64,000 nucleotides of DNA, from the NCBI GenBank assembly GCA_023014365.1, contig JAEBUN010000028.1:620001-684000 (forward strand). The letters are read 5' to 3'. The DNA comes from Lepiota brunneoincarnata (Eukaryota; Basidiomycota; Agaricomycetes; Agaricales; Agaricaceae). The notes beneath the pieces are model-generated. The model saw nothing but the letters and a program-made list of their open reading frames with translations. It did not search any database and had not been told where the DNA came from. This document shows, piece by piece, positions 3,161-48,744 of the stretch (position 1 is the first letter of the stretch; each line of letters opens with the position of its first letter). A program made the translations under genes and the position numbers.

Positions 3161-3569
3161 ATGACTACACCCACCGCAAAGGAGATCACATTGGCCTTGG
3201 AAAAGTATGAGAGCAATGTCCAGCAGGCACTGCATAATGGCCAGGTCACAGAAATAATGGAGACATACCTGGAAGAGATGGTATGTAGTTTGTGCTAGAA
3301 TTATGATATTGCATCAATTGGCAAGCCACATACAGCAGAAGACATTTGCACATACAAAAAGTAACAAGCCAGCAATTCATGCCACTTTCAAAAAACATTG
3401 ATTCCTCCTCAAATTCATTGTTGCCTGGCATGGCCAAGGCAGCAATCCAACATTTAATATAGATCAGCTAAATGCACTTGAAAAATATGACAAAAAGGTC
3501 ACAAAGAAGAGTGCTGATAAAATGGTGCATGCCGATGAATTGTTTCTTGGCTGCACAGGATTTACTTAG
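3161..3569 (+). CDS. Possible small two-exon gene inside the KDZ element
   Basis: An ATG at 3161 opens a helix-rich frame (MTTPTAKEITLALEKYE...) to a GT donor near 3282. After an AG near 3463 a second frame contains LNALEKYDKKVTKKSADKM and ends at TAG 3567-3569. The repeated ALEKY-type motif on both sides suggests one protein. It may be the first exons of the larger gene starting at 3590. The function is unknown and the evidence is weak: open frames, plausible splice sites and composition only. Confidence 0.25.
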
Positions 3570-3589
3570 CCACACTTGGAAAAAAGCAG

Positions 3590-16090: not shown

Positions 16091-17620
16091 TGAAGTCATG
16101 CAGTGGCTTAATTGAATGAATAGTAGTTGAATAGTCATGAAAGGTCAGCAGCAGCTCAACCAGGCAAATGGTGGCTGCAACAGTAGAGAATTCAAGTATA
16201 CATATGCTACTATTTAGATGACTTGAATTTCCTGACCATTCCAGCTGCTGCTAACCTTTCATGACTATTCAGCTGCCGTTCAGTCAGTCAAGCAGCTGGA
16301 TGGCTTGACACATGCATGTATAGATATATTCTGCTAGTCAGATGACATGAATTTCCTGAGTGTTCTAGCCACTGTTCACCTGGTTGAGCCGCCACAGACC
16401 TTTCTTGACTATTTAGCTGTCATTCAGTCAGTCAAGTAGCTAGATGACTTCAGACATGCACATATAGATATATTCTACTAGTCTAATTGAATCCCTTGAG
16501 TGTTCCAGCCGCCATTCACCTGGTTGAGCTGCCACAGACCTTTCTTGACTATTCAGCTGTCATTCAGTCAGTCAAGTAGCTAGACGACTTCAGACATGCA
16601 CATATAGATATATTCTACTAGTCTAATGACTTGAATCTCTTGAGTGCTCCAGCTGCCATTCACCTAATTGAGCCACCACAGACCTTTCTTGACTATTCAG
16701 CTGTCATTCAGTCAGTCAAGTAGCTAGATGACTTCAGACATGCACATATAGATATATTCTACTAGTCTAATGACTTGAATCCCTTGAGTATTCTGGCTGC
16801 CATTCACCTGGTTGAGCTGCTGCTGACCTTTCTTGACTATTCAGCTGTCATTTGGTCAGTCAAGCAGCTGGATGGCTTGACACATGCACATATAGATATA
16901 TTCTGCTAGTCAGATGATGTGAATTTCCTGAGTGTTCTAGCCGCTGTTCACCCAGTTGAGCTGCCACAGACCTTTCTTGACTATTCAGCTGTTGTTCAGT
17001 CAGTCAAGTAGCTAGATGACTTCAGACATGCATGTATAGATATATTCTACTAGTCTAATGACTTGAATCTCTTGAGTGCTCCAGCTGCCATTCACCTAAT
17101 TGAGCCACCGCAGACCTTTCTTGACTATTCAGCTGTCGTTCAGTCAGTCAAGTAGCTAGATGACTTCAGACATGCATGTATAGATATATTCTACTAGTCT
17201 AATGACTTGAATCTCTTGAGTGCTCCAGCTGCCATTCACCTAATTGAGCCACCGCAGACCTTTCTTGACTATTCAGCTGTCGTTCAGTCAGTCAAGTAGC
17301 TAGATGACTTCAGACATGCACATATAAATATATTCTACTAGTCTAATGACTTGAATCCCTTGAGTGTTCCAGCTGCCATTCACCCAGTTGAGCCACTGCT
17401 GACCTTTCTTGACTATTCTAGCTAGATGACTTCAGACATGCACATATAGATATATTCTACTAGTCTAATGACTTGAATCCCTTGAGTGTTCCAGCCACCA
17501 TTCACCTGGTTGAGCCACCACTGATCTTTTGTGACTATTCAGCTGCTGTTCAGTCAGTCAAGCAGCTGGATGACTTCACATATCCATGTATAGATAAGAT
17601 ATATTTTGAAGAGAATACTC
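16091..17620 (+). repeat. Palindromic minisatellite array 1 (about 143-bp units)
   Basis: One unit in reverse orientation (16091-16195) is followed by about ten forward units (16216-17600). Landmarks are CCTTTCTTGACTATTCAGCT, CAGTCAGTCAAGTAGCTAG and ATATATTCTACTAGTCTAAT, each recurring every 142-145 bp. The unit near 17365-17485 lacks about 27 bp, giving GACTATTCTAGCTAGATG. The reverse/forward junction lies near 16200, with inverted words AATTCAAGT and ACTTGAATT on either side. No coding capacity. Confidence 0.85.
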
Positions 17621-17750
17621 ACAAGTCAATTGCTTGACTCTCTTGATATACCTTTATGACTTTCATATTCACTTATTTCTTTAGCTACTGATTGCTTACT
17701 TCACACAATTGACTTCTGAAAGAATGGGCCAACCAAGACCATAGGTGATA

Positions 17751-21928: not shown

Positions 21929-22855
21929 TGAAGTCATGCAGTGGTTTAAATGGCTGAACAACAGCTGAAATAGTCAAGAAAGATAAGTGGTGGCTCAGCT
22001 TAGTGAACAGCAGCTAGAACAGCCAAGAAATCCAAGCCATCCAGCTACCTGACCAACTGAATGGCAGCTAAATAGTCACAAAAGATCAGCAGCAGCTCAA
22101 CTGGGTGAACGGTGGCTGGATCACTCAAGAGATTCAAGTTATTAGACTAGTAGGATATATCTATATGTGCATGTCTGAAGTCATCTAGCTAGAATAGTCA
22201 AGAAAGGTCAGCAGTGGCTCAACTGGGTGAATGGCAGCTGGAACGCTCAAGGGATTCAAGTCATTAGACTAGTAGAATATACCTATATGTGCATGTCTGA
22301 AGTCATCTAGCTAGAATAGTCAAGAAAGGTCAGTGGCGGTTCAACTGGGTGAACAGTGGCTGGAACACTCAAGAGATTCAAGTCATTGGACTAGTAGAAT
22401 ATAGATAATCTATATGTGCATGTGGAGTCATCTGGCTGCTTGACTGAAGATGAATAGTCAATACTTGAGTGCTCCAGCCGCCGTTCACCTGGTTGAGCTG
22501 CTGCAGACCTTTCTTGACTATTCAGCTGTCATTCAGTCAGTCAAGTAGCTAGATGACTTCACACATGTATGGATATATTCTATTAGTTTAATGACTTGAA
22601 TCCCTTGAGTGCTCCAGCCACTATTCACCCAGTTGAGCTGCTGCTGACCTTTCTTGACTATTCTAGCTAGATGACTTCAGACATGCACATATAGATATAT
22701 TCTACTAGTCTAATGACTTGAATCTCTTGAGTGCTTCAGCCACCATTCACCTGGTTGAGCCACCACTGACCTTTCTTGAATACCCAGCTGCCACCATGTC
22801 AGTCAAGTAGCTGGACAATTTCACACATGCATCTAAAGATATATTCTAAGTCTTA
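21929..22855 (-). repeat. Palindromic minisatellite array 2
   Basis: Reverse-oriented units (21929 to about 22440) are followed by forward units (about 22455-22850), the same order of orientations as array 1. The reverse units include the short form lacking about 27 bp (TCTAGCTAGAATAGTCAAG near 22190 and 22310), shared with one unit of array 1. The array's end abuts the stop codon of the dioxygenase-like gene. Confidence 0.8.
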
Positions 22856-24229
22856 ATCATCCACAAGCATTCCATCTACCTCCTTCAACTCCATTTTCTC
22901 AACAAAGTCTGACTGCTTTGACCAGCCAGGAATTTCCACACCTAACTTCTTGTATATCACCTCTTTCATGTAGAAGGCATATACTACCCTGTCCCCATGT
23001 TCCCAATGCCCAACCCCATGTTTTAGAAAATGTCCACATAGGAAAACACCAGTACCAGAGGAGTACAAAAGCGTTATCTTTAACTCTGGTAGTGACAAAC
23101 AAGTGTCATCACCATGGGTCCAAAGGCTTACTAGGAGGTCATAACATGTCCAGTGTGCTCCCCTATCCTTATAGCTTTCAGTGATTCTGTTAAGGATTAC
23201 TGTTATCCCTGAGAAGCAGGAATGCCACTCATTGGCATAGTCCTTTGTTTCAGGTAATGCACGCAGTTTTGACAAGGATGCTTCATAGAGAGTGGGGTGT
23301 GTGAGCATGAGTGCCTTGTTGAGAAGGTCAGTTGAAGGCCGAATCATCTTGAGCCATTCTTTGCTACTGGTGTTTTTTTTTAATGTACTAGAGGTTACCA
23401 GTCTTGCCTTGGAACTATTCTGGTAATAAGTGTAGAGCATGAATTGGGTGTGTAGTATCAGTAATGAGAGGATACACACTGCATGTCCAGCAGGAATCTA
23501 ACCCAGTGAGAAGTTCAGGACACCTCTAGTCATCTTCTGACCTGGGACTTGGAGAAATGATGCAGGGTCATTTCTCCAAGTCTGAGCCTGGCCCAAACAC
23601 CACTCAAGTTGAGGTTGAATAAAATCTGTTGCCCTGAGGAGATTATCCTGTTTCAATACTATAAGCTACACTTCATAATAGTTGTACAATGAATGTTATA
23701 CCTGATGATTCTGGGGCAAGAGGTTAGGTAAATACCATACCAATATATTTCCTTGGTTATTGATGATAGTTGTGGGCTTGGTGAAATGCTTGGGACTGGG
23801 TTTGGATTTTAACATGATCTTTTTTGATGGCTCCAGGTTTGTTACATTGCAGTCAATAACATCTGGGCAATGACTTGAATAAAAATAAAAAAGCAAAGGT
23901 GTGGGAGACTGACTCACAAGGACAGAGACTAGCAGCAGTGAGAATTCACATGATATGCCTTTCCTCTGCTTCATTCTCTTTCTTCAAGACTTGTCTGTTC
24001 TCACTCATGATTTCTCCAAGGATTGGGCTTTTTAATATCTGGTAGTTGACTTGAATTTGACCCAGGAGGCTCAGACTAATGTGTTGTGAGTTAAAATGAG
24101 CTTTTTCCATGCATGGAATTTTGCTCTCATGTATGCTACTAGTCCCTTGTTTTTGTGGTACTGTTTTTTCTTATCCCTCCCCCAGATTTTCTTCACTGAC
24201 TTGCTAGTGGAAGGTTGGATAGGAGCCAT
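22853..24229 (-). pseudogene. TET/JBP-like 2OG-Fe(II) dioxygenase, decayed
   Basis: The family oxidises 5-methylpyrimidines in DNA using Fe(II) and 2-oxoglutarate. On the minus strand the likely start is at 24229 (MAPIQPSTSKSVKKIW). A block around 23760 reads GNILVWYLPNLLP, and the last exon (23479-22853) carries the core: VILNRITESYKDRG, CYDLLVSLWTHG, LSLPELKITLLYSSGTGVF, FLKHGV and EHGDRV. In relatives I recall, the ESYKD position is H-x-D; here the first metal-binding His is Tyr, which one C-to-T change would give. The Asp, distal His and Arg remain. Stops separate the exon blocks between 23480 and 23700. The family call comes from motif memory. Confidence 0.6.
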
Positions 24230-25652: not shown

Positions 25653-25924
25653 TGGTATGCTAGGGCCCATTGAAAATGCTGTCCACTAGGTCTATCTAGT
25701 TTAGAGATACTTACTGCAGGAGCTTGCCAAAAGCCTGTCTCACTGAGTAGTATAAAGTTTTATTGCATTGTTCAGAAGCTGTAGCGTGCTAGGACCTGTT
25801 AGATAATGCTGTCTGCTAGGCCTACTAGCTTAAAGACACTTACTGCAGGAGCTTGTCAAAAGCCTATCTCGCTGGGTAGTGTAAATTTATAGTATTGTCA
25901 AGAGAAAAGGATGTAGTATGCTAG
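25653..25924 (+). repeat. About 130-bp tandem repeat, third unit split by gypsy A1
   Basis: Units begin near 25653, 25785 and 25913 with GTATGCTAGG- or GTGCTAGG-like words. The first two also share TTACTGCAGGAGCTTG and AAAAGCCT. The third unit continues after the retrotransposon at 33811 (GGCCTATTAGAACATG). The uninterrupted GCTAGG in units 1 and 2 shows the target before insertion. Confidence 0.75.
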
Positions 25925-26587
25925 TGTCATATCCACACCAAACCTAGAGCTTAACCATTAGGCTTCGGCTTCTCGACTCCACGTGTGCTCCACACGACAA
26001 CCCTATGCCCTCCGACTCGGCCCCGACTGGCTCCGACCGCAACCCTTCGCCCCGATCACGCGACCTACTTCTACACGTGCCACGACCACCTGACCCTCGG
26101 TGCTCCCATTGTCCAGTTCTCCATTCTCCGTCCGTAATCAGAATACGTTACCAGTCTCCATACCCGTACCGGTCTCCATTCCATTCGAAATTATTCGTAA
26201 TCCGCTTGTAACCATATGGGTCTCCGCTTCGCTCCGCACGTAGTCAGTACGAGTCATCATTCGTCGAGCTAGTAGTATATATACCGTAGGCACTTGGCTT
26301 GTACTCCTCAGTCTGATAATCGAATCGAGCAGCGGACCAGCTCCCTGTTCCATATCCTCTCCTCTCTTCTGCCTCGCTCCGCTTCGGCTCCGACTTCCTG
26401 AAATACGGACTAGGACAGTAGGAGGGCACAGCACATAAGCTGAGGCCGCAAGTCCAACCCCCCGCCCGACGTACTCCGCCTCGGTCCCGAAGTCTACGTA
26501 CTGACTTCGCCCTGTCCCCCGGTTACCTTATACCAAGGATACCACCCCGACCCTCCGCTTCGGTTCCGACCCGCACCGGCTCTAACA
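25925..26587 (+). repeat. 5' LTR of gypsy A1
   Basis: 663 bp, TG...CA ends, identical to 33143-33805 except for one base by eye. Contains the promoter TATA box and predicted RNA start. Confidence 0.95.
26276..26320 (+). promoter_or_regulatory. LTR TATA box and self-priming R sequence
   Basis: TATATATA lies at 26276-26283. AGTCTGATAAT (26310-26320) begins 34 bp further on, where transcription should start. It is the exact complement of the 11 nt at the primer site 26590-26600. In Tf1-type elements the first 11 nt of the mRNA pair with the primer-binding site, so this places the start of R at about 26310. Confidence 0.7.
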
Positions 26588-26589
26588 GT

Positions 26590-26600
26590 ATTATCAGACT
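26590..26600 (+). other. Primer-binding site, self-priming type
   Basis: ATTATCAGACT begins 3 nt after the 5' LTR and is complementary to 26310-26320. No TGG of a tRNA-type primer site is present. The pair is also conserved in copies A2 and A3. Confidence 0.7.
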
Positions 26601-26640
26601 CAAACTCCTCCTGTCCACCACACTCTGAATTTTTCTAACC

Positions 26641-28047
26641 ATGGTCTCTCGAACAGTTACCCGTACTCGCACTCTCGTAACTCCAGCCGCTCGCCGTAGC
26701 AAACGCATCACTCGACAACCTCCTTCCGAGGAACTGCAACCCGACTCCCCGAGGGCTTCTCGCTCTCACCAACAATCGATTGCACCCTCGACCCCAGACC
26801 GTTTCTCTGAAGATATACAACCTTCAGTATTCCGGACTCCCGACGGCCCCAATGATGGCCCCGACCCCAATCCTGATCCCAGCGACCCTGGTGATCCCGA
26901 CGACTACCCTGACAATGGGGACGGGCCCCCGGGCGACGACGAACCATCAGACAACGGCGACAACAACAACAACATCCCACCTGGCAACACCCGAGACGAC
27001 CATGATAGACTCATACTCCGAGTTTTCCAACGCATAGCCGACCAAATGGACGGCCGTGGGAACTCTCAAGCCCCACAGCCTCCTCGATCTCCCCGTACCA
27101 AAGCTCGAGAACCTGACATCTTTACAGGTTCCGACCCCGCCAAACTCAAACCCTTCCTCTTCCAATGTCGGCTCTATTTCCGTACTAACCCGGCCCAGTT
27201 CGCTATCCCCGCCACCAAGGTCAACTTCGCGTTGACATACCTCACAGGCGTGGCACAGCAACACTTCGAAATCGGCCTCGACGAGGCCGACAACCACGGA
27301 ATAATACACGACTGGATCGAGGACTGGGACCAGTTCACCCTGGAACTGCAGACCAATTTCGGTCCCGCGGATCCGACCGGAGAAGCTGCTGAGCAGCTCG
27401 ACTCCCTCCGAATGCGCTACGACGAGAAGATCGCCGTCTACAACGTCGATTTCCTCCGTCTAGCTGGCCAACTCCGCTGGGGTGACGAAGTATTCTGTCA
27501 CCGCTACTACAAAGGCCTCCCCGACCGCATCCAGGACATTCTGTCCAATCGGCCCGACGGCAAGCCCGACACCTTCATCGAAATGCGAGCAGCAGCGATG
27601 AAGATCGATGCTCGCTACTGGGAACGCCAACGCGAGAAGGCCCGCGCCAAAGCCGCTTCGGACCCGACCGCCTCTAGGAAACCTGGAGGCAACCCATCCC
27701 CTTCCACCGCGACAAACCATCAACCTGCCGCCAAGCCTGCCAACAGTAACAACAAAGGCAGCACCCCCAGTAATAACATCTTCAAGGGCAATCCGCCCAA
27801 CCCGTCCGCCAGTCAGAAATCGGCCCCGCCAAAGTCCGACCTTACTAGTAAACTTGGTAAGGACGGTAAATTAACCCCCGAGGAACGTCAACGACGTTTC
27901 GACAATAACCTCTGCCTTGTCTGCGCAGATCCCAATCACAGGGCTGCCAACTGTGACAAGAAGAAATTCCCTGACGCCAAGGCTAAAGGCCGACAGGCTC
28001 AGATTCCCGAGACAGACGCGCCGGCTCTTCCGAGCTCGGAAAAATAG
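26641..28047 (+). CDS. gag: Gag polyprotein of gypsy A1 (468 aa)
   Basis: Forms the particle and binds the element RNA. The start ATG sits in ACCATGG, 53 bp after the LTR. The first 120 residues are Pro/Asp-rich and probably disordered. Residues about 150-330 form the retrotransposon gag (capsid) domain (FLFQCRLYFRTNP, FCHRYYKGLPDRIQ). A Ser/Asn/Pro linker follows. The zinc knuckle CLVCADPNHRAANC (CX2CX4HX4C) lies at about residues 425-438. The frame ends TCGGAAAAATAG, overlapping the -1 frame that becomes pol. Confidence 0.93.
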   Translation: MVSRTVTRTRTLVTPAARRSKRITRQPPSEELQPDSPRASRSHQQSIAPSTPDRFSEDIQPSVFRTPDGPNDGPDPNPDPSDPGDPDDYPDNGDGPPGDDEPSDNGDNNNNIPPGNTRDDHDRLILRVFQRIADQMDGRGNSQAPQPPRSPRTKAREPDIFTGSDPAKLKPFLFQCRLYFRTNPAQFAIPATKVNFALTYLTGVAQQHFEIGLDEADNHGIIHDWIEDWDQFTLELQTNFGPADPTGEAAEQLDSLRMRYDEKIAVYNVDFLRLAGQLRWGDEVFCHRYYKGLPDRIQDILSNRPDGKPDTFIEMRAAAMKIDARYWERQREKARAKAASDPTASRKPGGNPSPSTATNHQPAAKPANSNNKGSTPSNNIFKGNPPNPSASQKSAPPKSDLTSKLGKDGKLTPEERQRRFDNNLCLVCADPNHRAANCDKKKFPDAKAKGRQAQIPETDAPALPSSEK

Positions 28048-31000
28048 TCGGCGGTCCTCAGGCCTCTGCACAGACTGAGGATCGCATTGAACTCTGCTGT
28101 GCTCCAGAGAGTTTCCGTCTCAATGCGTCTGCTCTTTCCAATCCAAACTCTCTTCATATTACATTAACTTCTCCTTTAGTTACTTTGTTACCCTCTGTTT
28201 CCGCTCCTGTACTCTCCGCTTCGGACCCGCTTTCTACAACAGACAATGTAGTTAGTTCTGACTTTTCTTCTTCTTTTTCTCCTTTCAAAGCTCTTGTTGA
28301 TAGTGGTTCTACTCACTGTTTTGTGGACTCTTCTTTCGTTCGTTCTTATAGTATTCCAACCTCGTCCATCCCGGCTATTGAACTTCGGTTATTTGATGGG
28401 ACCTCAAACGCCTACATTACGGAACTTGCGCAACTGCCTGTATCCTTCCCCTCCGGTGAATCTATCATTTTGGACACTTATGTCACCCAGCTCGACTCTT
28501 CCTGTTCTGTGGTCTTAGGACACAACTGGCTCACCCGCTACAATCCGTTGATTGACTGGGCTTTGGGCAGTATTACTTTCCGGCCATCCCTACTGGAGAA
28601 TCCTGCTTCCGTCTCTACCTGCGTCGCACCCGCATCGGCTCCGCCTATGGCCGCCCCTGACTCTCCTGACCTAGGTTCACCACCCCTGTCTGGGACCTCG
28701 TCCCAATCTGTCCCCCTTGCGAAACCGCACATCTCCTTGATAAACGCTCCTGCCTTTATCCGCGCTGCCAAGCTCCCTGGCTCCCAACAATTCCGAATCA
28801 ATCTTTCCGCCGCCTCCGCATCGGCCGCGTCCTCTGCTGTCTCCGAGGAACCGCCTGACCTCTCGTCCATCCCCGAGGAATACCACGAGTTCGCTGACGT
28901 TTTCAGTAAATCGCGTGCTGACACACTTGCTCCACACCGCCCTTACGACCTCCAGATTAACCTAGAGGATGGCGGTCAGCCTCCGGTCGGTACCATTTAC
29001 TCCCTTTCACAATCGGAGCTTGGAGCTCTACGTGATTTTATTGACGAACATTTATCTATTGGTTTCATCCGCCCCTCCACTTCCCCTCATGGAGCCCCGG
29101 TCCTCTTCGTCAAGAAAAAGGACGGCTCCCTCCGCTTATGCGTTGATTTTAGAGGTCTCAACCGTATTACCAAGAAGGACCGCTATCCCCTTCCGCTCAT
29201 CTCCGACCTCTTAGACTCCCCTCGCAAAGCTCGCGTATATACCAAGATCGACCTCCGCCACGCCTACCATCTTGTCCGCGTTGCTGACGGCGACGAATGG
29301 AAGACCGCCTTTCGGACCCGCTACGGCTCCTTCGAATGGATGGTTATGCCTTTCGGCCTCACCAATGCCCCCGCCACCTTCCAGCGGTTCATGAACGATA
29401 TATTCAAGGACATGCTCGACGTCTGCGTTACTATCTACCTTGACGACATTCTGATATACTCCGACAACCATAGTATCCATCGTGACCAAGTCAAGGAGGT
29501 CCTCAAGCGGCTCCGCCAACACGGTCTATACGCCCGCCCTGACAAATGCCAGTTCCACTCTGACACAGTGGAATATCTCGGCTACATTCTCTCCCCCGAC
29601 GGCCTCCGAATGGACCAATCTAAAGTCAAGACCATCCAGGAGTGGCCTGAGCCTAAGAAAGTCAAGGACATCCAGTCCTTCTTAGGCTTCGCCAATTTCT
29701 ACCGTCGCTTCATTCACGGATACTCCGACATCGTCGTTCCGCTCACTCGCCTCACCCGCAAAGACGTGAAGTGGAATTTTACTGATGATTGTCGCGAGGC
29801 CTTTAACTCCCTGAAGGAAGCATTTATCTCCGCCCCCGTCCTCACTCCTTGGGTCCCCGACGCTCAGATCATTGTCGAGACCGACGCCTCCGACTACGCC
29901 CTTGCGGCAATCCTCTCTATCGTCACCGACGATGGGGAGGTCCATCCCGTTGCATTCCATTCCCGCACCTTTAACACGGCCGAACTCAACTATGACACTC
30001 ACGACAAGGAACTCCTGGCGATATTCGAAGCCTTTCGCATCTGGCGGCACTATCTCGAAGGTGCCCCCCTTGCTATTGATGTGGTCACTGACCACAAGAA
30101 CCTCGAATACTTCTGCACCACCAAGATCCTGACTCGCCGCCAAGCTCGTTGGTCCGAGTTCCTATCCCAATTCCACCTCGTCATCCGTTTCCGACCCGGC
30201 CGCCTCGGCACCAAGCCTGACGCCCTAACTAGACGATGGGACGTCTACCCTAAAGGGGGGAATAGCGACTATGCATCAGTCAACCCGCACAACTTCCGGC
30301 CTGTGTTCACTCACGAACAGCTCGCGGCCTCCGTCCGTGCCACCACTCTTTACGCCCCTTCCCTTTGCGCAGCTGTAGTCATGGACCTCGATCAGCTACA
30401 CCGCGATATTCTCGCCGCCCTATCAGCGGATCCGACCGCTTCCGCCCATCTTGCCAGCCCAGAAGGCCGTTGGTCAGTTAATGATAAAGGTTTCCTCCTC
30501 TTAGACGACAGAATCTACGTCCCTGACGCCGACAATCTCCGACTTCGGGTCCTCCAGTACAAGCATGATCACGTCCTAGCCGGCCACTTCGGTCAGAATA
30601 AAACACTGGAACTCATCCGGCGCGAATACACCTGGCCTAGCGTCCGCACCTTCGTCAAGGATTTCTGTAAGTCTTGCGTCACCTGTATGAGGTCTAAACC
30701 CCAGCGCCATCGCCCCTACGGTCTCCTTAAGCAACTCCCCATCCCCGAACGCCCTTGGAATTCAATCTCCATGGACTTCGTCGAAAAACTTCCCGCCTCC
30801 TCCGGCTATGACGCCATCCTGGTAATCGTTGACAGACTCACCAAACAATCCCTCTTCATTCCGACTTATGATACCGTCACTTCCTCCGACCTCGCCCGCC
30901 TATTCGTCCTCCACGTCTTCTCTAAGCACGGCGTGCCCGAACATGTTACCTCCGACCGCGGCTCCGAATTCGTCTCCCACTTCTTCCGCTCATTGGGACA

Positions 31001-31850
31001 AGCCCTTGACATGAAGCTACATTTCACCTCGGGCTATCACCCAGAAGGCGACGGACAGACGGAACGCACCAACCAGACCCTGGAACAATACCTCCGGGTC
31101 TATTGTAACTACCAACAGGACAATTGGTCCGAATTACTACCCCTAGCTGAGTTTGCTTACAACAACGCTCCTAGTGCCACCACCGGTATCTCCCCATTCT
31201 TCGCTAATAAAGGATACCATCCGAACATCACAGTTCATCCTGAACGCGATCTTGCCTCCGCCCGGGCCCGCCATTTTGCTGTTGATCTCGACGACCTACA
31301 TACCACCCTGAAGTCCGAAATAGCGCTAGCCCAGCAACGTTATCAGACCTCCGCCGACGCCCGCCGACTCCCCGCCCCGGACTTCAAGGTTGGACAAAAG
31401 GTATTCGTGAAAGCCCAATTCTTCCGCACCACCCGTCCCTCCAAAAAACTCTCCGAAAAGTACCTTGGGCCTTATGAGATCATTGCACAAGCAGGTACTC
31501 ACTCCCTTACACTCCGACTTCCCGACTCCATGCGTGGAGTACACCCAGTCTTCCATGTTTCCATGCTCGAACCAGCCACACCTAACACCATACCCGCCCG
31601 ATCGGATCCGCCGCCCGCGCCGGTTTCCATTGACGGTGAACCAGAATACGAGATTGCCCGCATCGTCGACTCTAAGATCGATCGGCGCCGCGCGTGCAAG
31701 CTCCTCTATAAAGTCATCTGGTTAGGTTACGAAGACACTGAAGAAGAGTCCTCGTGGTTGCCAGCCACCGAGCTTGAACATGCTATAGATCTCGTAGAGG
31801 CTTTTCATTCCTCTTACCCTGCAAAGCCTGGTCCTCTTCACTCACTTTGA
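28044..31850 (+). CDS. pol: Pol polyprotein of gypsy A1: PR-RT-RNase H-IN-chromodomain
   Basis: Copies RNA to DNA and integrates it. The frame is -1 to gag and open from 27987, lacks an ATG before the protease, and so is probably made as Gag-Pol by -1 frameshifting near GGAAAAATAG. Counting residues from 28185: protease DSG at 39-41, RT active site YLDD at 418-421, RNase H near 560-680, integrase zinc finger from about 795 (H..H) to 830 (CVTC), and integrase D864-D924-X35-E960. A chromodomain spans about 1155-1205 (YEIARIVDSKI, LLYKVIWLGYED, SSWLPATEL). The chromodomain suggests targeting to modified histones. No stop or frameshift is seen. Confidence 0.95.
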   Translation: MVGGPQASAQTEDRIELCCAPESFRLNASALSNPNSLHITLTSPLVTLLPSVSAPVLSASDPLSTTDNVVSSDFSSSFSPFKALVDSGSTHCFVDSSFVRSYSIPTSSIPAIELRLFDGTSNAYITELAQLPVSFPSGESIILDTYVTQLDSSCSVVLGHNWLTRYNPLIDWALGSITFRPSLLENPASVSTCVAPASAPPMAAPDSPDLGSPPLSGTSSQSVPLAKPHISLINAPAFIRAAKLPGSQQFRINLSAASASAASSAVSEEPPDLSSIPEEYHEFADVFSKSRADTLAPHRPYDLQINLEDGGQPPVGTIYSLSQSELGALRDFIDEHLSIGFIRPSTSPHGAPVLFVKKKDGSLRLCVDFRGLNRITKKDRYPLPLISDLLDSPRKARVYTKIDLRHAYHLVRVADGDEWKTAFRTRYGSFEWMVMPFGLTNAPATFQRFMNDIFKDMLDVCVTIYLDDILIYSDNHSIHRDQVKEVLKRLRQHGLYARPDKCQFHSDTVEYLGYILSPDGLRMDQSKVKTIQEWPEPKKVKDIQSFLGFANFYRRFIHGYSDIVVPLTRLTRKDVKWNFTDDCREAFNSLKEAFISAPVLTPWVPDAQIIVETDASDYALAAILSIVTDDGEVHPVAFHSRTFNTAELNYDTHDKELLAIFEAFRIWRHYLEGAPLAIDVVTDHKNLEYFCTTKILTRRQARWSEFLSQFHLVIRFRPGRLGTKPDALTRRWDVYPKGGNSDYASVNPHNFRPVFTHEQLAASVRATTLYAPSLCAAVVMDLDQLHRDILAALSADPTASAHLASPEGRWSVNDKGFLLLDDRIYVPDADNLRLRVLQYKHDHVLAGHFGQNKTLELIRREYTWPSVRTFVKDFCKSCVTCMRSKPQRHRPYGLLKQLPIPERPWNSISMDFVEKLPASSGYDAILVIVDRLTKQSLFIPTYDTVTSSDLARLFVLHVFSKHGVPEHVTSDRGSEFVSHFFRSLGQALDMKLHFTSGYHPEGDGQTERTNQTLEQYLRVYCNYQQDNWSELLPLAEFAYNNAPSATTGISPFFANKGYHPNITVHPERDLASARARHFAVDLDDLHTTLKSEIALAQQRYQTSADARRLPAPDFKVGQKVFVKAQFFRTTRPSKKLSEKYLGPYEIIAQAGTHSLTLRLPDSMRGVHPVFHVSMLEPATPNTIPARSDPPPAPVSIDGEPEYEIARIVDSKIDRRRACKLLYKVIWLGYEDTEEESSWLPATELEHAIDLVEAFHSSYPAKPGPLHSL

Positions 31851-31921
31851 GTTACTGACCACACATCGCACCAAGAAACAACCATGTATTAAACAAACCA
31901 AAAAAAAACAACCCCGTACAA

Positions 31922-33007
31922 CTACCTATCGGTGTCGTCTCCAGAGAGCCCGGGCGACCCATTCACTTCTTCCATCAAATCCTGCACCTCCTCCTCCGAA
32001 GCGGGCCCGACACTCCCCTCCGAACCCTCCGTCTCCGAAAAATTTCCACTCGACCAATTTCCGTCCACCTGAGCCTCCCAACGCCGTAGTTGCTCGTAGC
32101 AGCCAGCAAGCGACCCCATCTTGTCGACCTTTTCCCCCAACCGAGCGATGGACCGCTCAATTCGCACCTCCAGGGTGTAGATTTTCTTGACGGTCTCCTG
32201 GTGCCTTTCTTCGATGAGCCGTTTCAACTCTACAAGGTCCATCAATTGGCATCCATCATAATACAGGATCCCTTACTCACCTTCGAATTGCTGGCCCGAC
32301 AAACCACCGGCCCCGCTCGGCTCCGTCTCCTCTTGACCCCCGCACCGTTTTTTCATTTTGCTGCACCGACGGCAACTCCTGGTGTTACTAAGAAACTATC
32401 AGTATGTAGTCCGGAAATCCTCCAAAATGACTTACCCGCCGGCCACCTCACATGGGGCCCCGTCTCGCTGGCACCTCCAGCAGGGATTCTCGCCCCCGAA
32501 TACGTGCGCATGGCCCCGTCGCGGGGCCGCCCTCGCCTTTGCCTTCCCCTTACCCTTACCCCCTGAATCCCTGGAGTCCTCCTCCCCCTCTTCCTCCTCG
32601 TCCCTCGCCTCATCCCTATCCGTATATTCGGAATCCGACTCCTCCGTATCTACTTGCATCGGGTCTTCCGACGGACGGCTCGACGAGGCCCCTGTGGTCG
32701 TCGCAACGAGTCGGGCCCGAATCGCCCGACGCTCTGCCTCGGCGGTTTCCTCTTGCTGCCTCCTGATCTCCTCCGCATATCGCTCCTTCGCGCGCTCTTC
32801 CGCTTGTCGCTGGCGCAGCTCTATGAGCCGCCGTCGCTCCTCCTCTTGGCGCTCTATTGCCAGCCGCCGCTCCTCCTCCTCTCGCCGTTCCTCTTCTTCT
32901 AGCCTCTCGATTTCGAGCCGCTCTCGTTCCTCTCGCTCCGCCTTCTCTCTCAGTAATCGCGCCTTGCGCTCCATAGCGGTCGGTTGACGGGATGGTTGTC
33001 TGCTCAT
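31922..33007 (-). CDS. Antisense spliced gene for a Zn2Cys6 coiled-coil protein in gypsy A1 (328 aa)
   Basis: It lies between pol and the 3' LTR on the opposite strand and converges on pol (71 bp between stops). Exons are 33007-32436, 32387-32281 and 32229-31922; introns 32388-32435 and 32230-32280 have GT-AG ends. Residues about 14-110 are a highly charged Glu/Arg coiled coil. Then come an acidic stretch and C176-X2-C179-X6-C186-X9-C196-X2-C199-X6-C206, matching the Gal4-type Zn2Cys6 cluster, with the first intron inside its linker. The C-terminus is another helix (ELKRLIEERHQETVKKIYTL) and an acidic tail. A TATAAAAAAA box lies about 55 bp upstream of the ATG. All frames and splice sites are intact. 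Probably a nuclear DNA-binding protein made from its own promoter; role unknown. Confidence 0.8.
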
Positions 33008-33129
33008 GGGGGTAGGAGGTTAAGTTGTGTCCTCTCAAATTCGAATCAGTTCACCTTTTTTTTTATACCCTCGTGGAATTTTCCGGTGGGCCCCGGTCTA
33101 GACCGCCTTGGGCCTCGAGGCTCGGCCCT

Positions 33130-33142
33130 AAAGGGGGGGCAC
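33130..33142 (+). other. Polypurine tract of gypsy A1
   Basis: AAAGGGGGGGC immediately precedes the 3' LTR, the usual place for the plus-strand primer. The complementary tract is seen in A2 at 36841-36852. Confidence 0.75.
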
Positions 33143-33805
33143 TGTCATATCCACACCAAACCTAGAGCTTAACCATTAGGCTTCGGCTTCTCGACTCCAC
33201 GTGTGCTCCACACGACAACCCTATGCCCTCCGACTCGGCCCCGACTGGCTCCGACCGCAACCCTTCGCCCCGATCACGCGACCTACTTCTACACGTGCCA
33301 CGACCACCTGACCCTCGGTGCTCCCATTGTCCAGTTCTCCATTCTCCGTCCGTAATCAGAATACGTTACCAGTCTCCATACCCATACCGGTCTCCATTCC
33401 ATTCGAAATTATTCGTAATCCGCTTGTAACCATATGGGTCTCCGCTTCGCTCCGCACGTAGTCAGTACGAGTCATCATTCGTCGAGCTAGTAGTATATAT
33501 ACCGTAGGCACTTGGCTTGTACTCCTCAGTCTGATAATCGAATCGAGCAGCGGACCAGCTCCCTGTTCCATATCCTCTCCTCTCTTCTGCCTCGCTCCGC
33601 TTCGGCTCCGACTTCCTGAAATACGGACTAGGACAGTAGGAGGGCACAGCACATAAGCTGAGGCCGCAAGTCCAACCCCCCGCCCGACGTACTCCGCCTC
33701 GGTCCCGAAGTCTACGTACTGACTTCGCCCTGTCCCCCGGTTACCTTATACCAAGGATACCACCCCGACCCTCCGCTTCGGTTCCGACCCGCACCGGCTC
33801 TAACA
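33143..33805 (+). repeat. 3' LTR of gypsy A1
   Basis: 663 bp, matching 25925-26587 except A at 33384. Followed directly by the GCTAG target duplication. Confidence 0.95.
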
Positions 33806-33810
33806 GCTAG

Positions 33811-36971: not shown

Positions 36972-38008
36972 ATGAGCAGACAACCCTCCCAACAACCGAC
37001 TGCCACAGAGTGCAAGGTGCAATTGTTGAGGGAGAAGGCAGAGCAAGAGGAATGAGAGTGGCTAGAAATCGAGAGGCTGGAGGAGGAGGAGCAATGAGAG
37101 GAGGAGCAGCAGCAGCAGATGATAGCACTGCGTCAGCGACAAGTGGAGGAGCAGGCGAGGGAGTGTATGGCAGAAGAGATCAGGCAGCAACAAGATGAGG
37201 CTGCCGAGGCAGAGCATCAGGTGATTTGGGCCCAACTCATTGCAATGACTGCAGGGGCTTTGTTGAGCCACCTGCCGGAAGAACCAATGGAGGTAAATAT
37301 AGAGGAGTCAGGTTCCAATTACATAGATAGTAATAAGATGGAAGATGAGGGGGAGGAGGAGGTAGAGGCCTCCAGGGATACAGGGAGTAAGGGAAAGGCA
37401 AGGGCAAGGGCAGCCCTGCGATGGGGCCATGTGAACATATTTGGGGGTGAGAACCCCTGCTGGAGGTGCGAGCAAGATGGGGTCCAGTGCGAGGTCGCTG
37501 GCGGGTGAGTCGTTTCTTGAAGGTTTCTGGGATACATACTGATAAGGTTTTTAGTAACACCAGGAGTTGCCATTGGTGTAGTAAAATGAAGAAACGATGT
37601 GGAAGCCAAGAGGAGATGGAGCCAAGTGGGGCCAGTGGGTTGTCGGGCCAACAGTTTGAGGGTAAGTAAGGAGTCCTGTATTGTGATGTATGCTAATCAG
37701 TGGGTGTTGTAGAGTTAAAACGGCTCATCAAGGAAAAACACCAGGAGACCATCAAAAAGGTCAACATCCTGGAGGTACGGCTCGAGCAGTCCATTGCTTG
37801 ATTGGGGGAGAAGGTGGACAAGGTAGAGCAGGTGGCAGGCTGTTATGAGCAACTGCAGCATTGGGAGGTGCAGGTGGATCATAATTGGTTGAGTGGAAAT
37901 GTTATGGAGACAGAGGAGAGCATTGGGGCCACCTTGGAAGAGGAGGTGCAGGGCTTGATGGAAGATGATGCTGCACAGTTGCCCAGCCCCTCTGGAGACA
38001 ATAAGTAA
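36972..38008 (+). pseudogene. Antisense Zn2Cys6 gene of gypsy A2, three TGA stops
   Basis: Homologue of the 31922-33007 gene with the same position, orientation and exon layout. Exons are 36972-37504, 37555-37661 and 37713-38008, with GT-AG introns at 37505-37554 and 37662-37712. The zinc cluster is intact: CWRCEQDGVQC, then NTRSCHWCSKMKKRC. In-frame TGA codons at 37053, 37095 and 37799 stand where A1 has Arg CGA or CGN codons. A TATAAAAA box at 36916-36923 is 56 bp upstream of the ATG. The conserved splice sites and cluster in an old copy argue that the gene was part of the ancestral element. Confidence 0.75.
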
Positions 38009-42531: not shown

Positions 42532-43032
42532 TGTAAGGGTGACCTGGCTGCTGTGTTGCATCAGCTGAGCAGGGAGAAACCTTAGTATCATTTCCAGACT
42601 TCTACCAAGTACATACCTGAGCAGGGAGAAACCTTAGAGAATCAAGTAAGGTTTCTCCAAGCTCACCTACACTACTTATACTACCTGCCATAAGGTCCAA
42701 GTTGAGTAATTTACTCTACATAAATGGCTGTGAGGTGTCAGGGATGCCTAAAGTAAGTATAGTTGGGAATGGGCTCAGGATAGGGTCATGCATGCCAGTG
42801 AGGGTTTGCGTCTGCATTGGAGGGGTGTAGGAGGGAATTCCAAGTACTGGGGTGTTGGGGGACAGATTTCTGGGCCCAGGGGGGCTGGAAATCGGATTTC
42901 TGAGTGCAGGAGGGCTGGGGATTAGATTTCTGAGTGCAGGAAGGCTGGAAATTGGATTTCCAGGTGCAGGAAGTCTGGGAATCAGAATTCCAAATCTGCA
43001 GTTGTGAGCAATGACCTGGAGTTCCCCTTACA
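42532..43032 (-). repeat. 3' LTR of gypsy B
   Basis: 501 bp; contains about four copies of a 30-bp unit (GGGCTGG...GATTTCTGAGTGCAGGA) where the other LTR has about two. Confidence 0.88.
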
Positions 43033-43033
43033 C

Positions 43034-46000
43034 CTACCCCCCTTCAAGGTTGTGACGACTCAGCACAATGGTCAGATTGAGGGCACAGAAGGGGATTGAG
43101 CCAAATGCAAGACTCCTGATCTGTCTCGGAGCTCCTAGGTGTTGTTGATAGAATTCCATTATGCAGTCAGGGGCATGGATGTCCTTGGCCAATTCCCAGG
43201 AGTTTTCTTCAATCCTGAAGTCCTTCCATTTCACTAGGAACTGGAGTCTCCTCTGGTGGATGTGGCTATCCAGGATTTCCTCAACTTCCCACTCTTCTTC
43301 ATCCTCAATGATGATAGGTGCTGGCAGTGGTTTGGGCTGGCATCTGGGAATGGGGTCGGTGGGAGCGAGTGTGAGCTTTACCACATTGAAGACTGGATGG
43401 AGGTGTCTCATGGATTTCGGTAGCTTCAGTCGGTATGCATTGGAGCTGACCTGTTTGTCAATTGCATAGGGTCCTAACCAGCAATGTGAGAGTTTCTTGG
43501 ATGGTCATGTGGTTTGTATGTCTGATGCATTCAGGAAAACCTTGTCTCCAGGTTTAAACTTCAGAGTTGGGGTTTGCCATTGGTTGTAGTACCTTACCAT
43601 GTTGTCTTTGGACTTCACAAGTGCTGATCTTGCCTCCTCCAATGCCGATTCCATCTGGGATTTGAACTCATTGACTGTTTCCAGCCAAGATGGTCGTTGG
43701 CAGGGTTCAAACCCCATTCTCAGGTTTCGGCCAGTGTCTAGGACAAATGGTGAGTGTTGGGTGGAAGTATGGATGTGGTTGTTGTGCTGAAATTCTGCCA
43801 GGGGGAGAAGGGCATGCCAATCATTCTGTCGCTCATTGACAAAGATCCAGAGGTATTGGTCCAATTCCTGGTTGACCTGTTCTGTCTGCCCATCTGATTG
43901 AGGGTGCCATGCTGTAGAGGAAGCACCTTTGATTCCGAGTAAGCGGTAGAGTTCCCTAGTGAATGATGCAATGAACTGAGGACCCCAATCCAAGACCACT
44001 TGATGTGGAAGTCCATGTAGTTTCCATGCTGTGCTGCTCCATCCACTGTAAGGGTAGTGTGTGTTGGGATGAAATGAGCACGTTTGGAGACAGAGTCAAC
44101 CACAGTCATGACAGCATCATACCTGTTGGACTCTGGGAGTTCCACTACAAAGTCTATGCTAATGGTATCCCATCAGGCTTCCAGAATGGGGAGAGGGTGA
44201 AGTTCTCCAACAGGGAGTTTCCAGATTGGTTTTGCGTGGAGGCACAGGTCACATGTAGAAACATACTGACCAATGTAGCAAGACATGTTGGGCCACCAGT
44301 AGTTTTGGGAGACAAGTTCCAGAGTTTTCCATCAGCCTGCATGTCCCCCAATTTGGGAATCATGGTGAAGGGCTACAATGTGTCAGCAGAGTGCTGCATC
44401 ATCTGGAACATATATTTTGCCTTGGAAGAGAAGCAAGCCATCCAGTTCCAACCACTTAGCACTGCGCACTGAGCATGTTGCAGACTTCTGGAGTTCCTGG
44501 GCTGCTTTGGCCACTGTTTCCTCTTGTCTGCCTCCTCAGTTTCCAGAGCGGATATCTCAGAGGAGGGCCTGCTCTTCCTCTTGAAGAGAAATCCCGTCAA
44601 CAGCTCGCACTGCAAAAAGAGATGCTGGAAGAAGTGTAATGTCAGCATTATCCTGTGCTCCTGAGCCATGATCAGATCTCTGAGACAAGGCATTGGACTT
44701 TTCCATGCTGCAACCAGAACAATGGTGAAGAGAGAAGTTGAACTGGGAAAGATAGAGGGACCAATGTGCCTGTTGGTGGTTCAGCTTCTGAGCAGTCATG
44801 AAATACTCTAAGTTCTTGTGATCTGTCCAGATTTCAAACTTTTCCCATGCTCCTTAAAGGAAGTGTCTCCACTCTTCCAGTGCCCAGATAATGGCCAGCA
44901 TCTCCTTATCATGGATCTCATAGTTGCACTCCACCAGAGACAAGGCTTTAGAGTAAAATGCTACTGGGTGCCACTTTCCATCATCTCCGGAGAGTTGAGA
45001 TAGTACAGCCCCCGTGGCAAAATCTGAACTATCAGCTTCTATTTGGAAGGGTGCCTTATCATCTGGAGAAGCCAAAACTGGAGCCAAAGTGATAGCTGCT
45101 TTCAAGCCGTCAAATGCTGCTTGCTGTTCCAAGTTCCACTGCCATGTAGTGCTGTTTTGGGTGAGGTCAAAGAGGGGTCAGGCTATGTGGGAGAAGTCCT
45201 GGATGAAGCAGTGGTAGAAGTTTGTAAAACCCAGGAAAGACTGAAGCCCTAACTTGTCCTTGGGGGTCAGCCACTCCTTGACTCCTGCAACTTTGACTGG
45301 GTCCATCTTGATGGAGTTTTCCAAGATGATGAGTCCTAGGTACTCAATGTGAGTGTGCTCAAACTCACACTTTTCCGGCCATAGGTAGAGGTTGTGCTGT
45401 TGAAGGATCTCCATGACATGCCTAACAACATCCCTATGCTGCTCCAAGGTCCAGGTGAAGATGAGGATATCATCCAGGTAGACGACTACAACTCCTTCCA
45501 TGATAAGTTCATGAAAGATGTCATTCATCATCATCTGGAAGGTGGCCAGGCTGTTAGTGAGGCTGAAGAACATGACAAGGGGTTTGAAGAGGCCCCTATT
45601 GGTGTGAAACACTGCCTTCCACTTGTCTCCTGGCTTAATCCGGACATTATTAAAGCCCCATCAAACATCTAGTTTGGTGAAGTACTTTGCCCTCCAGAGC
45701 TGCACAACCAGCTCAGAGATGAGGGGTAGAGGGTACTTGTTCTTCACCATGAGGGCATTGAGTGCTTGGTAATCCTGTACTAGGCAAAGCAAGCTGTCCT
45801 TTTTTTTAATGAAGAAGACTGGGGAAGCCATAGGAGACTTAGATGGGTGTATCTGACTGGAAGACAAATTTTCCTGTAGGAATTTGTCCAGTTCCTTCTG
45901 CTCAAGAGAGGACAGTGGATAGACCTTGCACCCCTTGGGGTCTGCTCCTGGAACAAGCTCTATTGCATAATCCCAGGCTTGGTGATCTGGGAGCATGTCA

Positions 46001-46809
46001 AAGGACTCCTTGGCAAAGACAGCAGCATACTCCTGAAGATATGGGGGAACATGTGCTCAGAAGCTGGAATTCTGGGGGCTATCAATCTGGGAATTCCAGA
46101 GGAAGGCTTCTGCTAGGTGCTGAGAGGTGGTAGAGCCTGCGGCAATCACCTCCGGAGTGGGCTTTGGAGGGAGGAGTCCTACTGCAAAGATGTGATCCCC
46201 ATCTTCTAAAGGCTCCTCCGACTCTTCAGTAGGGAGGGCTGGCTCATCCTCATCCTCTTCTTCATCTAAGGTGGGGAAGGGGCTGAGTCAGCAGGCACAG
46301 ATGCAACTGGCTTGAAGCTTTTGGGCATGGCATTTGGCATGCAACTGGTCTTGGCATTCTGTACAGTGTGAGGGGCATTGGGATAACTTGACTTCTCCAG
46401 TTTGCCAGTTAATTTCCAGGTTATGAAGCTTCAGCCATGTAAATCCCAGAAGGAGTTCTTGCTTCCCCAACTTGGTTACTGCTAACAGCATGCGTTCGGC
46501 ATGGTTCCGATAGCATAAGACCACATCTACCACTTTGGAAATTTGTCCAGCCTCATTCGGAGTCCCATCTACATTGAACACCAGGATGGGATTGGATAAG
46601 TGGCAAGTACTGAGGCAAGCAGCATGCACAAAGTCTTGGTCAATGAAGGAACCGGTTGCACCAGAATCCACCAATGCCTTGACTGTTTTGTATTCTGCTG
46701 AGTCAGTGGTCTCAAGTTCCACTGTCAACTGGAGAGACTTGGATTCCAAGTCAGAATAAGCAATGATTGGTCTCTTTGGGAGGTGGCATTCCCAGTGGGG
46801 ACGTCGCAC
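43034..46809 (-). pseudogene. pol: Pol of gypsy B, fragmented
   Basis: Blocks in order on the minus strand: protease VKALVDSGATGSFID (about 46690); RT from 45996 with IKKKDSLLCLVQDYQALN and YLDDILIFT (about 45480); RNase H (45132-44854, EADSSDFATGAVLSQL); integrase zinc region (about 44330-44240); integrase core with IDFVVELPESNRYDAV, LDWGPQF (the usual SDRG changed at two bases) and SDGQTEQVNQELDQYL. Last is a chromodomain (43330-43150, EWEVEEILDSHI, FLVKWKDF). Numerous stops and frame changes; not functional. Confidence 0.85.
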
Positions 46810-46928
46810 TGAAGTTTTTGGGGGTGGTGGTGTGTCTTCAGGAGTTGGTTTAGAGCCAGAAGCAGGTTCTATTTAATCTACCAACAAAACCAAAAACCTA
46901 TTACATGAATGTGGTGGGGGCACACCAG

Positions 46929-48191
46929 TCACCCATTGCACTGCTGAAAATCCTCTTCAGCTTCTAACTCTGCTTCTTCCACCCTCAGAATTCCAGTTGT
47001 TGCAGCTAGGGCATCCATCTCCAAGTTGCACTTCTGCATCAGTTCATCCTGTTTCTCCAGATCCATGTACTGGATGTCATGACAGAGTGGACACTCAGCC
47101 TTCATATGTCCCAGTTTTTTACAATGGTAGCAGAGCAGGGGGAGTCTGGATTTCTGCTTGGAGGCATTGATGTCCATAGGGACTGGATTTCCCAGAGAGG
47201 GGTTGAAGTGGATAGGGGGGCGTGGTGGGGCCAAAGGTCTGATTGTCGGCATAGCAGGGGGGAGTCTGATATATCCTGTGGGAGGCTTGGAGGGGGGTGG
47301 GAGTGGGGAGCGAGTACTGGAGCAGAATGCCTCATTTGCCATTTGGGCTTGGTCTACCTGTCATGCTGCTGAGTACCAAGCCTCTGGGTCTGAGTCCAAG
47401 GGATGGCCTGCTGGGAGGGTAGCAATGGCATTCTGGATGGAAGGGCATAGACCTCAGTGGAACTTAACCACAATAACTCAGGGGTCTTGGTATCCAGACT
47501 TGGAGATGAGAACCTTGAAAGTATCTAGGTAGTCTTTGACAGTCTGCTCTCATTGGTGGTATGATGTGGACTCCAACATGTTTAGTGCATCGGCTTCTGC
47601 ATTGACAGGGAAAAACCAACCCTTGAATTGTTCAGTGAAGTCCCACCAGTCTGTAAAGGGAAACCCACCAATGCTAGCTTCCAAGCAGAACAGCTCATCG
47701 GCCCACTGCACTGCATGTCCTGACTTCATGTAAGAGAGGGTCCACAGTATTTTCTGTTCATCAGACCAGAATTGATCTGCCAAGAGCCTGATGTAGAGCT
47801 GGCATGCATTCAGAAATGCATGACCCTTGGCACGTTCTCCGTCAAATTCAGGTGGGGTTGCCACCTTGGCCTTGGTGGAGGTGTGTGGTGAAGGTGATGG
47901 TGGATGGGGGTGTGGAGCAGGAGGGGGGGGTTCATGGGTGGTGGCTTGGGGCTCATACTCCACTCTATTGAGGGGCATGGCTGAGATAGAGGGGGGGGTG
48001 TTGGGGTGCTGTCATCCTATTGAGTCCATGAGGTTTTGGAGCGTGTCACATATGTCATTCACCATGTCTGTCATGTTCTGTTCAGCTTCAGCTTGTTGGG
48101 CCTGTACCATTGCCATGTCTGTGAGAAGTGAGCCTATGGCGTGCTCAATGGTCATTTGAGTTGGTGGTTGCTGCTGCTGCTTTTGGGACAT
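46929..48191 (-). pseudogene. gag: Gag of gypsy B
   Basis: Start at 48191 (MSQKQQQQPPTQMTIEHAIG), then a coiled coil, a Pro-rich stretch and a gag domain (ATPPEFDGERAKGHAFLNAC, FWSDEQKILWTLSYMKSGHA). The zinc knuckle CYHCKKLGHMKAEC (CX2CX4HX4C) lies near 47110. Stops near 47995, 47550 and 47490-47350 break it. The C-terminus at 46929 is Glu-rich. Confidence 0.8.
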
Positions 48192-48303
48192 GATGGCAAG
48201 GGCATTGGGAGGTAGAGGAAGGGAGTAGTTGGCATGGGAGAAGTGGTATAACTTGTCCAGGTGTTGTCAATGGCCAGTCCTCTGGGAATAGACTTAATTC
48301 TTC

Positions 48304-48744
48304 TGTAAGGGTGACCTGGCTGCTGTGTTGCATCAGCTGAGCAGGGAGAAACCTTAGTATTATTTCTGGACTTCTACCAAGTACATACCTGAGCAGGGAG
48401 AAACCTTAGAGAATTGAGTAAGGTTTCTCCAAGCTCACCTACACTACTTATACTACCTGCTGTAAGGTCCAAGTTGAGTAATCTACTCTACATAAATTGC
48501 CATGAGGTATCAGGGATGCCTAAAGTAAGTATAGTTGGGAATGGGCTCAGGATAGGGTCATGCATGCCAGTGAGGGTTTGCGTCTGCATTGGAGGGGTGT
48601 AGGAGGGAATTCCAAGTACTGGGGTGTTGGGGGACAGATTTCCGAGCATTGGGAGGCTGGGGACTGGATTTCCGAGTGCAGGAAGTCTGGGAATCAGAAT
48701 TTTGAATCTGCAGTTGTGAGCAATGACCTGGAGTTCCCCTTACA
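48304..48744 (-). repeat. 5' LTR of gypsy B, with TATA and self-priming motif
   Basis: 441 bp. On the minus strand a TATAAG box (plus 48447-48452) is followed about 33 nt later by ACTCAATTCT (plus 48410-48419). The bases just after the LTR (plus 48294-48303, ACTTAATTCT) pair with it at 9 of 10 positions, matching the layout of family A. Confidence 0.65.

Follow-up and report, generated by a model that had tools for sequence, protein, structure and literature searches.

An antisense gene with conserved introns and a zinc-cluster-like motif in a chromovirus family of Lepiota brunneoincarnata

Long terminal repeat (LTR) retrotransposons are known to carry antisense accessory genes, yet what these genes are for is not understood. 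The locus described here lies in a stretch of 64,000 nucleotides from the fungus Lepiota brunneoincarnata (assembly GCA_023014365.1, contig JAEBUN010000028.1, positions 620,001 to 684,000; hereafter the window, in whose coordinates all positions are given). A chromovirus in this window, A1, bears a three-exon gene for a zinc-cluster-like protein on its opposite strand, in the stretch that separates pol from the 3' LTR. Since the element family offers open copies, diverged types, natural deletions, conserved introns and the zinc-cluster-like motif, the question of a regulator can be posed directly, that is, whether the protein binds and controls its own element and whether each type acts on its own sequences. 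Is the gene real, is it a trait of the family, and what might its product do?

The antisense protein-coding gene is, in our judgment, almost certainly real. Its three exons and GT-AG introns, which encode 328 residues followed by TAG, reproduce to the base the gene drawn in the first-pass annotation of the window (Table 1), and without splicing the antisense frame runs into stops in both introns. The perfect CX2CX6C-X9-CX2CX6C cluster of that annotation is likewise present, as C176-X2-C179-X6-C186-X9-C196-X2-C199-X6-C206, and is split by intron 1. Also borne out was the claim that a second copy, A2, has the same gene, splice sites and cluster, interrupted by TGA codons: its ATG and GT/AG sites are as in A1, exon 1 is in frame, and the introns measure 50 and 51 nt. 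A TATA-like box does precede the ATG, although in A1 it starts 60 bp upstream and not at the reported distance of about 55 bp.

The gene is a trait of the element family and not of A1 alone. Searching the genome (55.6 Mb in 95 contigs) with exon 1 returned at least 152 matches; the counts below rest on the best-scoring matches, namely the best 150 of 226 candidates for exon 1 and the best 150 of 948 for pol ends. Among the 150 listed pol ends, 115 were accompanied by both gene ends in antisense orientation, 11 by exon 1 only, 8 by the C-terminal part only and 16 by neither, and presence may be undercounted, as exon 1 and the C-terminal part entered the comparison with 150 listed matches apiece. 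That is, one or both gene ends were found at 134 of the 150, and the gene is thus present in most copies, as expected of an antisense open reading frame (aORF) of the aORF-3R class; a sense-oriented exon 1 within 2.5 kb was found at none of the 150. Exon 1 was open in 76 of its 150 listed matches, and in 71 of the 126 matches linked to a listed pol end. Introns of an antisense gene survive retrotransposition because the genomic RNA is sense. A spliced query of 249 nt revealed no intronless copy among the best 40 of 166 candidates, a result that is neutral as evidence; of its 41 matches, 39 span both introns and the other two are one intron-bearing copy in two pieces.

Conservation was assessed by aligning A1 with 61 further copies (L002-L062), of which L002-L030 were the best-scoring matches and the other 32 were picked for diversity from matches listed without stops in exon 1. 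Because of this selection, the 50 of 62 copies with at least 300 open codons (two of which, L007 and L008, end in a shifted frame) are no fair sample of integrity, and the keeping of frame in exon 1 (527-587 nt, the same modulo 3 in 61/62) is partly conditioned. The ATG and both sites of intron 1 are kept in all 62 copies, donor and acceptor of intron 2 in 61 each, and all four splice sites in 60/62; the introns, whose conservation had been proposed as a check on the gene, are thus conserved in these copies. The donor of intron 1 reads GTAAGT or GTGAGT in 62/62 copies and that of intron 2 GTGAGT in 58/62, exon 2 is 107 nt long in 59/62, and the introns are 47, 48, 51 or 71 nt (intron 1) and 48-51 nt (intron 2) long. 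The splice sites persist even where the identity of intron 1 falls to 45%.

The second proposed check concerned selection, and across diverged types the antisense frame is under purifying selection, with a ratio of nonsynonymous to synonymous change (dN/dS) of about 0.2. Over the 36 pairs formed by nine groups sharing <93% identity (pairs that are not independent, from copies that recombine), median dS was 0.64, dN 0.13 and dN/dS 0.21, the ratio being 0.16 for residues 1-166, 0.13 for the cluster region and 0.29 for the rest. Leaving out L007, a family A copy with a frame-shifted tail, gave 28 pairs with dS of 0.57, dN of 0.12 and a ratio of 0.20 (range 0.13-0.37). The same spliced DNA read in the five other frames yielded 1.16, 1.48, 1.32, 0.34 and 1.71, where the frame with 0.34 shares third positions with the gene and contains 3-7 stops per copy. 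Differences at the three codon positions numbered 1544, 1340 and 3260 (1336, 957 and 2744 without CpG-type changes), and a free codon model beat an omega of 1 by 102 and 74 log units in two modules (with kappa fixed in the null as well). Within families, dN/dS was 0.54 in family A (22 copies; 0.57 in the 20 left without shifted tails and one other unusual ending) and 0.19 in family B (10 copies). The last 148 codons of pol gave 0.06 (30 of the 36 pairs, those with dS >0.05). The first-pass interpretation is therefore partly supported, i.e., for the gene, its splice signals, a TATA-type promoter and purifying selection.

With respect to the protein, the six cysteines have the spacing C-X2-C-X6-C-X9-C-X2-C-X6-C of the GAL4-type Zn2Cys6 family PF00172. 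Cysteines 176, 179, 196, 199 and 206 are invariant in the 50 open copies and cysteine 186 is kept in 49, as opposed to cysteine 270, outside the cluster, which is a cysteine in merely 2 of the 50. The antisense protein differs from the GAL4-type family in scoring below its cut-off and in having the basic residues in the second half: the Zn_clus (PF00172) score was 14.3 against a gathering score of 21 bits, the first half-cluster aligns to positions 15-31 of the 39 in the profile, i.e., to the profile's second half, the second half-cluster by itself had no Pfam match, and the lysine-rich loop SKMKKR is located in this second half. In classical members of the family the lysine-rich loop is in the first half. 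Judged from this alignment and the position of the basic loop, the order of the half-clusters looks swapped relative to Zn2Cys6 regulators. Zn_clus was the sole domain in a Pfam scan of the protein at E 10 or better, with no bZIP among the matches.

Relatives of the protein outside this genome were not found in the protein database at E 0.001 or better (8000 candidates scored), nor for residues 163-300 at E 1 or better among 155 candidates; the database does include fungal proteins, yet antisense, intron-bearing genes in repeats may be unannotated, and absence is thus unproven. Solved structures gave no match to the antisense protein and viral contigs gave none either, and a search of bacterial assemblies for stray DNA returned 13 loci, only distant pol relatives with best segments of 30-52% identity. 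Two other cluster-bearing proteins occur in the window. The one at 3539-4837 (+) has a cluster at 4178 of the form CX2CX6C-X8-CX2CX6C and 63 genome matches, among them several open ones with identities of about 45%; in the Pfam alignment, the first half of this cluster falls on profile positions 1-15, which indicates no swap there. The other, at 18665-18124 (-), is part of a repeat with 31 matches and has two half-clusters at 18323-18213, with a possible short intron between them; these are unrecognised by Pfam and may be a relative of the cluster of the antisense gene.

The gene has a conserved TATA-type promoter region, and its parts have distinct histories. In 59/62 copies a TATAAAA box precedes the ATG by 56-65 bp, and just ahead of the ATG the sequence CACAACTT is the same in all nine copies that were compared. 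Pairwise identities indicate exchange: L041 and A1 are 100% identical in the final 447 nt of pol and 99% alike in exon 3, but their identity is 77% for exon 1, 80% for the promoter and 45% for intron 1, whereas L041 and L061 share 99% in exon 1 and 73% in exon 3, and L046 and L047 share 100% in exon 1 and promoter and 76% in exon 3. Across 36 pairs of nine copies, exon 1 identity correlates (Spearman) with that of the promoter (0.66), intron 1 (0.72) and exon 2 (0.72) and is uncorrelated with that of exon 3 (0.01) and pol (0.13), while exon 3 identity goes with intron 2 (0.45) and pol (0.59). In recombination, promoter and exon 1 thus move together as one block relative to exon 3 and pol. Since promoter identity follows exon 1, gene and promoter are inherited together, and since exon 2 tracks exon 1 while exon 3 tracks pol, the switch point is in or adjoining exon 2. 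Template switches in the course of reverse transcription would account for this mosaic.

The linkage between exon 1 and the U3 region of the LTR is weak: the two LTR sixths closest to the polypurine tract correlate with exon 1 at 0.32 and 0.31, the following two at 0.09 and 0.14. L041 and L046, to give one example, share 97-99% identity over most of U3, yet 78% in exon 1. We therefore rejected the idea that the entire U3 moves together with exon 1 (0.09-0.32). A near-palindrome, GGGCC-AGCCTC-AGGCCC at 33112-33130 (-), stands beside the polypurine tract and is exact in 48/62 copies; it may be an operator, although the adjoining tract needs conservation anyway.

Copies lacking the cluster bear on what the gene does for the element. 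Four copies at separate sites (L064-L067) have in common an in-frame deletion spanning the coiled coil, the cluster and both introns. In the 71 codons that remain, the first 19 residues are fused to the acidic tail; this frame is open in three of the four (the other has a TGA). The LTR pairs of these copies are 99.4-99.7% identical (over 636 bp in L064), compared to 98.2-99.5% in the 15 gene-bearing copies measured (the sixteenth, L015, gave no 5' LTR), which makes them at least as young. Four young insertions without the cluster imply that it is not needed in cis, and help in trans from full copies would be the simplest account of them. Other deletions in the gene are carried by L063, L068, L069 and L070, and 7 of the 16 listed pol ends with neither gene end were inspected. 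The first-pass annotation had named family members lacking the gene as evidence against its interpretation; some do lack it, which argues against a need in cis but not against the gene.

What might the protein do? The best explanation overall, to which we give just under an even chance, is a trans-acting accessory regulator carried in antisense; that this role is transcriptional we hold more tentatively, somewhat short of even. Under this explanation the gene would be transcribed toward pol from its TATA promoter, which lies between the ATG and the polypurine tract, and the twice-spliced transcript would encode a protein that combines a Zn2Cys6-like cluster with acidic stretches and a probable coiled coil. 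The protein would then enter the nucleus, pair via its coils, bind DNA in the neighboring U3 or in the antisense promoter, and tune sense transcription of related copies in trans, as HBZ tunes human T-cell leukemia virus (HTLV) type 1. Expression, splicing, nuclear entry and DNA binding are all predictions here. HBZ of HTLV-1 would be the best functional parallel, as an analogy of mechanism with no kinship claimed: HBZ and APH of HTLV are antisense, spliced, near the 3' LTR and nuclear, and regulate sense LTR transcription (excerpts of PMC3185765). HBZ is, however, a retroviral bZIP protein whose RNA has its start in R/U5 of the 3' LTR (same excerpts), whereas the A1 gene has its TATA box between tract and ATG and encodes a protein without a bZIP domain.

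In favor of the regulator stand the low dN/dS across types, the kept splice sites, the near-invariant cysteines, the TATAAAA box and the joint inheritance of gene and promoter. Several observations weigh against a regulator: the ratio of 0.54-0.57 in the young family A; the end of pol, which is held tighter than the antisense gene; the open fraction of exon 1, which is as expected from mutational decay; the recent transposition of cluster-less copies; the Zn_clus score, below the gathering threshold; and the weak linkage of exon 1 to U3, which argues against strict regulator-target pairing and for which we lowered the probabilities of the overall explanation, the transcriptional role and the exchangeable modules discussed below. 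Alternatively, the protein might act on chromatin or on the integration complex (nuclear entry, site choice, resisting host silencing) rather than on transcription. We consider this rather unlikely, since no such domain was found by Pfam besides the cluster and the deletion copies still inserted, though trans help could explain the latter; in its favor, pol already has a chromodomain, so that contact with chromatin is relevant to the element, differences of the CpG to TpG type and the breaks of A2, all of them TGA, point to an attack by the host against which an accessory protein could help, and nuclear steps have been proposed for plant antisense proteins (excerpts of PMC7264820). It is also conceivable that the antisense transcript itself acts, as double-stranded or small RNA limiting the element, with the protein secondary: convergent transcription across the end of pol would give overlapping RNA, as discussed for plants (same excerpts), but such action needs no dN/dS of 0.2, invariant cysteines or conserved splice signals, and we find it improbable.

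A host gene captured and kept for host reasons, or a functionless passenger, would fit the half-cluster proteins at 4178 (+) and 18323-18213 (-), which indicate that such genes exist outside A1-type elements; it fits poorly with a gene whose ends occur at 134 of the 150 listed pol ends and whose types diverged under constraint, and the selection result contradicts the passenger form, so we regard this account as quite improbable. Finally, an artefact, with the antisense frame open through base composition or overlapping sense-frame constraint, can hardly be the explanation. One sense frame does run for 216 codons without a stop across part of the gene (32337-32987), but across the nine groups the sense frames show ratios of 1.32, 0.34 and 1.71 and are interrupted by stops in 7, 9 and 9 of the nine copies, respectively, and the introns vary while the exons keep frame. 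Overlapping sense coding was rejected on these ratios and stops.

The trans-acting regulator could be taken one step further, with gene, promoter and the adjoining end of U3 forming exchangeable, immunity-like modules in which each exon 1 type would encode a regulator specific for its own control sequences, with copies repressing their own type; we regard this as very doubtful. Template switching in exon 2 would put a new type on a successful gag-pol backbone, which would thereby escape repression, and phage repressor/operator types would be a parallel. The weak linkage of exon 1 to U3 (Spearman about 0.3 at best) counts against such modules, although their target could be the tightly linked antisense promoter region.

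How does the gene compare to known systems? In fungi, the antisense gene brtn was reportedly described in Boty-like elements by Zhao et al. in 2011. The premise of the first-pass annotation that Ty3/gypsy elements encode only gag and pol was too strong, as antisense genes are carried by Boty and by the plant elements Grande, RIRE2, Retand and PvRetro13, and lie between pol and the 3' LTR (excerpts of PMC7264820 and PMC11963269). Boty-like elements of Botrytis cinerea carry brtn (cited in excerpts of PMC7264820, PMC8365987 and PMC4227169), and the likeness to A1 is that of a fungal gag-pol element with a chromodomain and an extra antisense gene between pol and the 3' LTR; the excerpts citing brtn, however, mention neither a zinc cluster nor introns in this gene, and no test for selection on it. 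Gene23 of Grande has its own promoter and a nuclear protein (excerpts of PMC7264820 and PMC11963269), and DNA binding is predicted for TRP28 of Retand (excerpts of PMC11963269). These plant aORFs (TRP28, gene23 and those of RIRE2 and PvRetro13) differ in their protein domains and in belonging to plant elements; the word "intron" is absent from the main text of PMC7264820 and PMC11963269. The titles and abstract openings listed by our literature searches revealed no zinc-cluster antisense gene in a fungal element, and within that scope a fungal chromovirus with a zinc-cluster-like protein, introns that are conserved, selection that has been measured and exchange of modules is new. If the regulator explanation is true, fungal retrotransposons would have an equivalent of the antisense regulators known from complex retroviruses.

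Table 1. Features of the chromovirus A1, its antisense gene and the copy of that gene in A2 (window coordinates)
Feature	Coordinates	Strand	Remarks
Antisense exon 1	32436..33007	-	Glu/Arg-rich probable coiled coil (by eye), acidic stretch, basic stretch, first half-cluster
Antisense intron 1	32388..32435	-	48 nt, GTAAGT..TAG
Antisense exon 2	32281..32387	-	second half-cluster CRRCSKMKKRC
Antisense intron 2	32230..32280	-	51 nt, GTGAGT..TAG
Antisense exon 3	31922..32229	-	C-terminal part, acidic tail, stop TAG
Antisense promoter region	33008..33142	-	TATA box 33061-33067; conserved CACAACTT at 33022-33029
Same antisense gene in older, inverted copy A2	36972..38008	+	three in-frame TGA; six cysteines kept
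Chromovirus A1	25925..33805	+	TG..CA LTRs; 5-bp target duplication GCTAG at 25920-25924 and 33806-33810
5' LTR of A1	25925..26587	+
Primer-binding site of A1, self-priming	26590..26600	+	11 nt complementary to LTR at 26310-26320 / 33528-33538
gag of A1	26641..28047	+	PF03732, E 2.8e-9 on 26644-28047; ATG read from sequence
pol of A1 (protease, reverse transcriptase, RNase H, integrase, chromodomain)	27987..31850	+	Pfam; 1287 codons open stop-to-stop
Polypurine tract of A1, adjoining 3' LTR	33130..33139	+	from sequence; conserved among copies
3' LTR of A1	33143..33805	+	sense TATATATA at 33494; RNA start predicted at about 33528; U3 about 33143-33527

The element itself is young, with 663 of 664 aligned bases identical between its LTRs, and both gag and pol are open. 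It has the LTRs, target duplication and polypurine tract of a chromovirus, and its pol scores above the Pfam cut-off for PF00078, PF17917, PF17921, PF00665 and PF00385, the last being the C-terminal chromodomain. The nearest named relative of pol by identity in the protein database is from Leucocoprinus birnbaumii (83%). A1 looks self-primed, with a primer site complementary to the start of its own predicted RNA: the 11-nt complement is located at LTR offset 386, 34 nt beyond TATATATA, and it is this offset that sets the U3 boundary in Table 1. A1 would thereby belong to the self-primed, Tf1/sushi-like group. In addition, gag and pol overlap at 27987-28047 in different frames, which suggests a frameshift.

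Elsewhere in the window, a second Ty3-type element lies inside copy A2 (42532-48603, -); its pol frame ends so near its own 3' repeat that, judged by eye, an antisense gene does not seem to fit in between. Direct repeats, mostly spaced by 144 bp, occupy 16204-17629, and a fragment at 491-1096 (-) matches eukaryotic small-subunit rRNA (Rfam). CxC2 and KDZ transposase domains, together with a TET/JBP dioxygenase domain, are found at 9506-10702 (+) and 22853-23497 (-); TET/JBP-type enzymes within fungal DNA transposons are treated in PMC12730594 (excerpts).
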